The position numbers and the translations under genes were made by a program. From Kocuria rosea (GTDB lineage Bacteria; Actinomycetota; Actinomycetes; Actinomycetales; Micrococcaceae), in NCBI RefSeq assembly GCF_023715525.1, contig NZ_JAMBOG010000019.1, positions 1-64,000 on the forward strand: 64,000 nucleotides of DNA, in the 5' to 3' direction. The notes below the pieces were generated by a model, which searched no databases, was not told the DNA's origin, and was given only the letters and a program-made list of their open reading frames with translations. Below are positions 20,427 to 22,440 of the stretch, one piece after another. Position 1 is the first letter of the stretch. Every line of letters starts with the position of its first letter.

Positions 20427-20810
20427 TTAGCCGCGGGCGGTCCTCACGTCGAGGACGTCCACCCCCGTGCCGGCGTAGCGCTCCGGCTCGGCGGTGAGCA
20501 CCGTGAGCCCGTGCACGAGCGCGGTCGCGGCGATGAGCCCCGCGACCGGATCGGGCCGGCGAGGAGCGTCCAGCCCGCCCCAGGTGCGGCTGACCAGGGC
20601 GTCCACCGGCAGCACCCGGTCCGGGAAGCGCAGCTCGAGCTGCTCTGCCCACAGCGCCTCGTCCGGCCGCCCGGCCAGGAGCTCGCCGAGCACCGGGGCG
20701 GGGAGGAACATGCGGCGGTGGCCGTGCCGGCGCAGGGCCGCGGCGATCTCCGGGCAGCGGTCCGGGGTGCGCACGCCCAGCAGCACGGAGCGGTCCAGGA
20801 GCAGGTCCAC
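20427..20810 (-). CDS. PIN-domain (VapC-like) protein with altered acidic site
   Basis: A 127-residue PIN-domain protein, the length of a VapC ribonuclease toxin. The first acidic residue is in LLLDRSVLLGV (usual LLVDTSVL), the second in VLGELLAGRP. The third is not in its usual place before the LIAATALVHGLTVLTAE motif: the expected Asp position is Ala, with an Asp three residues further upstream (RRPDPVAGLIAATA). GTG start at 20810, 30 nt after a small upstream gene. A toxin-antitoxin module is likely from context, but activity may be reduced or altered. Confidence 0.72.
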   Translation of the reverse strand: MDLLLDRSVLLGVRTPDRCPEIAAALRRHGHRRMFLPAPVLGELLAGRPDEALWAEQLELRFPDRVLPVDALVSRTWGGLDAPRRPDPVAGLIAATALVHGLTVLTAEPERYAGTGVDVLDVRTARG

Positions 20811-20840: not shown

Positions 20841-21020
20841 TCAGGCCGCGGCCGCGAGCCGGCCGCGGGCGGGCGCCAGCAGGAACTCGACGAACTCGTT
20901 GCGGGCCTGCACCACGCGGGCGTAGTCCTCGACGCTCATGGCGGCCGCGCTCAGGCCGGGCCCGGCGGCGGATGGTGCGGCCACGGGGGCAGGAGGAACG
21001 GGGGGAAGGGCGTCGGGCAT
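20841..21020 (-). CDS. Small protein, possible antitoxin partner of PIN protein
   Basis: A 59-residue ORF rich in Pro and Ala at the N-terminus, with a helix (MSVEDYARVVQARNEFVEFLL) near the C-terminus. An AGGA sits 10 nt upstream of ATG 21020. It precedes the PIN gene by 30 nt in the same direction, the position of a VapB antitoxin, but shows no AbrB or RHH motif. An in-frame upstream ATG at 21092 would give 83 residues with an Arg-rich start. Its leader resembles that of the divergent gene at 21537. Confidence 0.45.
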   Translation of the reverse strand: MPDALPPVPPAPVAAPSAAGPGLSAAAMSVEDYARVVQARNEFVEFLLAPARGRLAAAA

Positions 21021-21138
21021 GACCGGGATCCTTCGATGTGCTCTTGCTCGCACCGGGTGCCGCCGTGGCGGCGATGCGAGCCGCTTCCTCATCCGAACCA
21101 CCCGCGAACATGGGGTTGGTGCCCGGTCAAGTCGGAGC
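21021..21138 (-). promoter_or_regulatory. 5' leader A, homologous to leader B
   Basis: Read on the minus strand this leader contains GCTCCGAC, CCAACCC, GTTCGCGGGTGGTTCGGATG, GAAGCGGC and GCAAGA in the same order and near-identical spacing as leader B (21436-21536), ending at a ribosome binding site. The CCAACCC and GGGTGG blocks can pair as a bulged hairpin. Core 21080-21103. Meaning unknown. Confidence 0.6.
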
Positions 21139-21435
21139 TTGCCGACCGGGTCTCTTGAAGCTGCTCCCATTGAACCACATGTGGCGGACCGCACGCCGTG
21201 GCGCGCCCGGCGTCCCCGGACCGTCACCGGGCCGACACCTCGCCGACACACGGTTCGTGTTCACTGGTGCCGTGGCGCCGAGGGCCGCACCACCGAGGAT
21301 TACGTCTTCGTGACACAACTCACGACGGACTTGTCGGAGTGTCGGCCCCACGGGGTAGCCTGGACCTGCTTCTCGAGATGCAGCTTCCGCGCGCTCGGAC
21401 GGGACAGGACGTCCCGGACACGGGTTCGCGGACAG

Positions 21436-21536
21436 GCTCCGACCAGCTGCGCGCCAACCCGCAGTTCACGGGTGGTTCGGATGACGAAGCGGCGGGCAAC
21501 GACACCGGATGCCTGCAAGAACGTCAGGAGAAAAAC
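21436..21536 (+). promoter_or_regulatory. 5' leader B, homologous to leader A
   Basis: Plus-strand counterpart of leader A. The 24-nt core at 21470-21493 differs from A at one position. CCAACCCG / CGGGTGG can form a bulged hairpin, and a 19-codon reading frame starts at the ATG inside the core (21481). It ends with AGGAG at 21526-21530, 6 nt before the ATG of the small gene. A possible promoter, TTGTCG-N19-TAGCCT, lies at 21331-21361. Confidence 0.6.
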
Positions 21537-21830
21537 ATGACCATGTCCAAGGAAAGACCAGCGAGCACCACCGACCAGCGTGAGGAGTGGATCGACGTCA
21601 CCGTCACCACCCTCCCCGACCTGCACCTCGTCCGGCTGACGTCGACCGAGGGCGACGTCCAGGAATACCTGAGCGCGGAGGCCGCGGACCTGGCCGCCGC
21701 CGCGGAGCACACGGCGGGGACGGCGCAATGGTGCGCCAAGTACCACCAGCTCCTCGTCCCCGGCGCCATGGCGGCGACCGGACGGCACCCGTTCTTCAAG
21801 CTGCACCCGGCGCTGCCGCTGTCGGCGTAG
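21537..21830 (+). CDS. Small acidic protein, unknown function
   Basis: A 97-residue soluble protein, not recognised. The N-terminus is polar; the middle (EEWIDVTVTTLPDLHLVRL) looks like beta-strands and an Ala-rich helix follows. It is followed by WCAKYHQLLVPG. AGGAG with a 6-nt spacer gives a confident ATG at 21537. The start codon overlaps the stop of a 19-codon upstream frame (ATGA). A terminator follows at 21853. Confidence 0.7.
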   Translation: MTMSKERPASTTDQREEWIDVTVTTLPDLHLVRLTSTEGDVQEYLSAEAADLAAAAEHTAGTAQWCAKYHQLLVPGAMAATGRHPFFKLHPALPLSA

Positions 21831-22233: not shown

Positions 22234-22440
22234 TTAGGAGATGACGGTGATGTTCGCAGCCTGGGGGCCCTTGGGGCCGTCCTGGGTCTCGAACTCGACG
22301 CGGTCGTTCTCGTTCAGCGAGCGGAAGCCGCCGGAGTTGATCGCGGAGAAGTGGGCGAAGACGTCCTTGGAGCCGTCCTCGGGGGTGATGAAGCCGAAGC
22401 CCTTGTCGGCGTTGAACCACTTGACGATGCCGGTAGTCAT
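22234..22440 (-). CDS. Cold shock protein, CspA family
   Basis: Single-stranded nucleic acid-binding OB-fold protein of 68 residues. RNP1 is KGFGFITP and RNP2 is VFAHFSAI, with [11 protein letters not shown] at the start and [13 protein letters not shown] at the end, as in actinobacterial CspA. It acts as an RNA chaperone. The 5' region of about 150 nt is unusually AT-rich for this genome, as expected for the regulated leader of a cold-shock mRNA. Confidence 0.97.

Follow-up and report, generated by a model that had tools for sequence, protein, structure and literature searches.

Two paralogous SAM-IV riboswitches, placed back to back, most likely govern a toxin-antitoxin remnant on one side and an unnamed 97-residue protein (p97) on the other. 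The identity of both leaders as aptamers, their structure, their paralogy and their association with these genes are shown by computation. The binding of SAM, an OFF response and a translational mode of control are inferred: there are no binding or expression data, and the sequence leaves the direction of control undetermined. A preliminary description of the window (the whole 64-kb stretch of DNA that was analyzed), made from sequence alone, had proposed that two divergent small genes share homologous leaders with a 24-nt core, and this held: the core was found again at 21080-21103 on the minus strand (leader A) and at 21470-21493 on the plus strand (leader B), with a single difference. By Rfam alignment, it spans the 3' strands of P3 and P1 together with the PK-1 strand in both leaders. 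No third copy with up to three mismatches is present in the 64-kb window, and 100 dinucleotide shuffles of the window returned no core match. The hairpin CC(A)ACCC/GGGTGG noted at the time holds as well and is P3 of the SAM-IV aptamer. Of the suggestion that the leaders are a duplicated cis-acting RNA or operator, the RNA part held, although the class had not been named. The extents assigned to the leaders (21021-21138, minus strand, for A; 21436-21536, plus strand, for B) failed, being too short, with the 5' end of B set too far downstream. Co-regulation of both sides is supported as a reading, but that SAM is the shared signal is an inference from the class of the RNA alone.

Leader A (21035-21160, minus strand) is shown by computation to be a SAM-IV riboswitch aptamer: it matches RF00634 with 69.4 bits (E 3.9e-12 in 801 nt) and thereby passes the Rfam gathering score of 38 bits; that it binds SAM is inferred. 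P1, P2a, P2b, PK-1 and P3 are all formed in 43/43 distinct A leaders and P5 in most of them, and all four pairs of PK-2 are possible in each of the 43. Each of the seven pairs of P2a occurs with several pair types, i.e., with compensatory variation. In the window, the PK-2 loop strand, GUUC (21106-21109, minus strand), has its partner GAGC at 21040-21043, and the Shine-Dalgarno-like GAAGGA of the first ORF (21029-21034, minus strand), read from the sequence, lies 5 nt past the PK-2 strand. Leader A is kept 5' of its operon in 47 loci of one family.

Leader B (21369-21527, plus strand) is a second, divergent SAM-IV aptamer, which is likewise shown by computation, even though it stays below the gathering score in the window, and for which SAM binding is again inferred. 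With permissive filters, Rfam gives 34.8 bits against the gathering score of 38 (E 2.6e-4 in 801 bases), and no other Rfam family scores near SAM-IV on this leader. Orthologues in relatives score 33.2 to 44.6 bits, several of them above 38, and the g7 leaders score 38.3 to 40.6 bits (RF00634). The alignment is limited to 21419-21527 because an inserted hairpin, a feature missing from the Rfam model, parts the P1 5' strand, CTTC (21369-21372), from P2b. The orthologous leaders revealed the missing portion: CTTC-CGAG-ATG, the P1 5' strand with the start of P2a, is located about 50 nt upstream of the Rfam start, at 21369 in the window. These upstream strands are conserved in 19 Kocuria genomes, and each of the 18 distinct B leaders from Kocuria forms P1, P2a and PK-1. 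Between two Kocuria clades, PK-1 switches from UCCGA/UCGGA to UCCAA/UUGGA, a compensatory replacement of G-C by A-U. P3 is intact in all B leaders found by motif pattern, but the pattern itself requires P3. The PK-2 loop strand of B, again GUUC (21464-21467, plus strand), has the partner GAAC at 21519-21522, as read from the loop and tail sequence; 3 nt past the PK-2 strand follows AGGAG (21526-21530, plus strand), the Shine-Dalgarno-like site of the p97 gene, also taken from the sequence. The insert in P2 (21385-21435, plus strand), an extra hairpin between P2a and P2b, folds at -29.6 kcal/mol and is predicted in 32/32 distinct B-type leaders from three genus-level groups, with a median z-score of -3.3 against mononucleotide shuffles.

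Both leaders share the order of P1, P2a, P2b, P3, P5, PK-1 and PK-2 with the cryo-EM structure of SAM-IV (RF00634; PMC6890682). In that structure, a 4-nt turn connects P2a and P2b (PMC6890682), whereas leader B has an additional hairpin in its place. The preliminary description had also suggested a search for further genomic copies; with Rfam, five SAM-IV aptamers above the cut-off are found in the genome, plus leader B. A SAM-IV leader of the subfamily of A and B (CTTCACGAG...CCAACCC...GGGTGGTTCGGATGA.GAAGCGGC) also stands before a MetY-type gene of this genome (L065), and relatives show the same arrangement. The leader in L065 (MSVPVTDHDLSTRQIHAG...) is nearly the same as those of the window in its core (CCAACCC, GGGTGGTTCGGATGA, GAAGCGGC), its PK-1 and its spacing to the Shine-Dalgarno sequence but, unlike A and B, controls a PLP-dependent sulfur enzyme; we take the product to be a MetY-type PLP enzyme, a name that comes from reading the sequence and not from a library search. 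Since A, B and the MetY leader belong to one SAM-IV subfamily, they are paralogues; the order of duplication is not fixed by a tree. In Kocuria relatives, SAM-IV is also located before other unknown small proteins of about 119-181 aa (L061, L062, L064, L066, L069).

Downstream of leader A, operon A consists of a 59-codon ORF followed by a PIN-domain gene. The ORF (20841-21020, minus strand), here called mini-Phd, encodes a Phd-type antitoxin remnant with the motif AMSVEDYARVVQARNEFVEFLLAP. It had been described as a putative antitoxin, which held in part but was overstated, as only a C-terminal Phd segment remains: in Pfam, Phd/YefM (PF02604) is not matched, and the N-terminal DNA-binding domain is absent, whereas the antitoxins of modules without SAM-IV reach 44.6 to 50.1 bits (PF02604). 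With hhalign, a profile of 47 short ORFs aligns to Phd residues 36-62 (probability 91.8, E 7.5e-7), a stretch located just past the DNA-binding part. Some 27 columns carry this homology; a plain HMM search gave only weak support, yet three true Phd proteins outranked all shuffled ones. The second gene (20427-20810, minus strand) encodes a VapC/FitB-like PIN-domain protein (PF01850, 29.6 bits, cut-off 23.6) with an eroded active site. The search for relatives of this protein covered 245 genomes from the family and 347 from the order. All 47 linked PIN loci have the SAM-IV core upstream and a short first ORF of 41-78 residues with the motif A-x-S-x-x-D-Y...R-x-x-F-x-x-F-L-L. They come from five genus-level groups of one family: Kocuria clade 1 (7), g3 (17), g7 (10), g160 (2) and g161 (11). 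More distant PIN relatives, from the same and from other families, have no SAM-IV core upstream, and nearly all are accompanied by a complete Phd/YefM or other antitoxin. The counts of linked loci are not independent events, because the sequences are related and a single event may underlie all 47 A modules. The N-terminal part of mini-Phd varies strongly in both sequence and length (10 to 44 residues ahead of the motif; L118-L124, L134-L174) and is rich in Pro and Ala in Kocuria.

The truncation of the antitoxin and the erosion of the PIN active site are both shown by computation. The third catalytic Asp of the PIN domain is present in 10/10 unlinked proteins, compared to 4/47 SAM-IV-linked ones; of the remaining linked proteins, 22 have Glu and 21 a non-acidic residue at this position, the latter including all Kocuria and g161. 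In the window, Asp1 and Glu2 are present and the third acid is Ala; a VapC/FitB-type PIN RNase should have three to four acidic residues in its active site, and the protein falls short of this. It has also lost the TRN..DF motif, as have all of Kocuria clade 1 and most linked proteins. Glu occupies the third position in the g3 PIN proteins and in some from g7, and these might have retained activity. With Phd/PIN (VapC, FitB) type II toxin-antitoxin modules, operon A shares the two-gene organization, the PIN domain and the C-terminal toxin-binding segment of the antitoxin; it differs in lacking the DNA-binding part of the antitoxin, in its eroded PIN site, in the riboswitch in front and in its fixed chromosomal position. 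A search with PADLOC returned no match. Operon A is thus best regarded as a SAM-controlled, probably domesticated toxin-antitoxin remnant, a reading we consider likely, in which SAM binding, the direction of control and domestication are inferred.

The p97 gene (21537-21830, plus strand) encodes a member of an unnamed small-protein superfamily; of 26 further Kocuria genomes, 18 carry it. Its earlier description as a 97-residue unknown held, as no family is matched in Pfam or NCBIfam. The AlphaFold2 model predicts a small beta-rich fold (mean pLDDT 79). Fold searches against the PDB gave no convincing relative (best Foldseek E 0.46, VIA-align Z below 5), and a sequence search of solved structures gave no match. 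Because there is no convincing structural relative, the link of p97 to sulfur metabolism rests on the riboswitch alone. The repeated placement of the p97 superfamily under SAM-IV is shown by computation: the leader is present at 19/19 Kocuria p97 copies; outside Kocuria, the p97 gene is found in 10/10 g7 genomes and many g161 genomes, with SAM-IV at 7/10 g7 loci and at all eight g161 loci tested. The g161 proteins carry an additional N-terminal segment, C-x-x-F-x-P-G-H-x-x-H-W-I, which connects p97 with another family of small proteins (74% and E 2.7e-5 when both are compared by hhalign). This second family, also without a Pfam or NCBIfam match, is under SAM-IV in four Kocuria genomes, in the g7 genome G032 and in two more distant genomes. 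In family f19 of the same order (L103-L113), the second small-protein family is present with no Rfam riboswitch match upstream; these genes might carry another type of leader, which is no more than a possibility.

The locus is syntenic, in the order DUF6350-like gene, glycosyltransferase, PIN, SAM-IV, p97 and cspA. The layout of the window, in which SAM-IV/mini-Phd/PIN faces SAM-IV/p97, is repeated in 7 of 10 loci of g7. Kocuria clade 2 has p97 alone at the same place, beside the glycosyltransferase and DUF6350-like genes, and g3 has the PIN side alone, adjoining the same glycosyltransferase, DUF6350-like or SNF2 genes. These layouts across Kocuria, g7, g3 and g160 suggest that the locus is old, was passed on vertically and underwent separate losses; the order of events is an inference. 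In one g160 genome (G452), a SAM-I riboswitch (RF00162, 44.4 bits; L231:4305-4401, minus strand) precedes a MetE-like gene and faces the SAM-IV/PIN operon. A cold-shock protein gene adjoins p97 (22234-22440 of the window, minus strand); in relatives, its region matches the Rfam cspA thermoregulator only under the gathering score. Median pN/pS values in Kocuria clade 1 are 0.21 for p97, 0.42 for PIN and, within the short ORF, 0.36 for the conserved part and 0.77 for the N-terminal part. Such values indicate purifying selection, and p97, PIN and the short ORF therefore all appear to be used.

The interval between the two riboswitches (21161-21368) is taken to hold both promoters, with TAnnnT -10 boxes just upstream of the aptamer starts. 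Such a box, ending a few bases short of the aptamer, is present in 39/47 A, 19/19 B and 12/12 MetY leaders (shuffle means 4.0, 0.6 and 0.5, respectively); in the window, the -10 region reads TAGCCT for B and only TTCAAT for A. Because the -10 box ends just before the aptamer, each transcript probably starts at P1, so that transcription of either side would begin at or slightly before this helix. Binding of SAM would then stabilize the aptamer including PK-2. The 3' strand of PK-2 ends 3-5 nt before the Shine-Dalgarno sequence; high SAM therefore most likely blocks translation, which scarce SAM or methionine would allow. On the left, SAM would govern a pair of genes in one operon that stems from a toxin-antitoxin module of the Phd/PIN kind. 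As the antitoxin has lost its DNA-binding half, classical autoregulation has probably been lost; canonical catalytic residues are missing from the PIN protein. Most likely, the riboswitch took the place of the autoregulatory circuit and the pair was domesticated. On the right, SAM would govern p97, a small protein predicted to be beta-rich.

The alternative that survives best is that operon A is still a working toxin-antitoxin module, in which mini-Phd neutralizes an active PIN RNase and growth is arrested upon methionine starvation via SAM-IV. This remains possible: both genes show conservation and purifying selection, the toxin-binding motif is the most conserved part of the short ORF, and Asp1 and Glu2 of PIN are invariant, with Glu or Asp at the third position in 26/47 proteins. 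However, the third residue is non-acidic in 21/47, including all Kocuria and g161, TRN..DF is mostly lost, and the fixed syntenic place over several genera sets the module apart from most mobile toxin-antitoxin pairs. Less probable is that the riboswitches are SAM-IV but turn expression ON at high SAM, or act on transcription. The CUUC strand of P1 could in principle pair with the complementary GAAGG/AGGAG of the Shine-Dalgarno sequences, which would speak for an ON switch; moreover, no experiment fixes the direction. Against a transcriptional mode, neither aptamer is followed by a terminator-like site on the strand it occupies. Against an ON response, a MetY-type biosynthetic gene has a similarly spaced leader of this subfamily in front, and SAM represses such genes in the known logic of SAM riboswitches.

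Very little speaks for the view of leader B as a decaying copy of A without SAM sensing. Its score falls just under the Rfam gathering cut-off and its P2 bears an insert, but the aptamer is kept at p97 genes in 19 Kocuria, 7 g7 and 8 g161 leaders, P2a and PK-1 covary, and the insert hairpin recurs in every one of the 32 distinct leaders. An origin of B as an accidental remnant is ruled out by conservation. Interpreting the shared element as a DNA operator or as mobile-element ends, which the inverted arrangement and the similarity over about 100 nt could suggest, is all but excluded by RNA covariation, the complete SAM-IV architecture, conserved synteny and the presence of the element 5' of unrelated MetY-type genes elsewhere. 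The earlier view that these are not transposon ends held, and mobile-element ends are ruled out by SAM-IV identity, covariation and synteny.

The preferred reading, paralogous SAM-IV riboswitches in front of a toxin-antitoxin remnant and p97, describes leaders that are ordinary in their class and unusual in the genes they control, and, in the case of B, in shape as well. Riboswitches usually control biosynthesis or transport; in the window, the targets are not sulfur-metabolism enzymes but a toxin-antitoxin remnant together with an unnamed protein. In the literature searched, which left most subscription journals uncovered, there was no precedent for a riboswitch before a toxin-antitoxin or PIN gene. 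A bolder reading would be that, in Micrococcaceae-type actinobacteria, SAM-IV took over a Phd/PIN module, whose DNA-binding autoregulator was shed and whose PIN domain decayed, and turned it into a SAM-governed effector, and that the new p97 family under a SAM-IV with a P2 three-way junction is the second arm of a response to methionine starvation; taken jointly, these proposals could as easily fail as hold. Across several genera and at a fixed place, SAM-IV sits on a toxin-antitoxin remnant, where it has apparently replaced the repressor domain of the antitoxin. The locus thus offers a clear case of a metabolite-sensing RNA replacing protein autoregulation and a route to study the domestication of toxin-antitoxin systems. 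Leader B extends the known shape of SAM-IV, and the repeated control of the p97 family by this riboswitch suggests an unrecognized role of these proteins in sulfur or SAM physiology.
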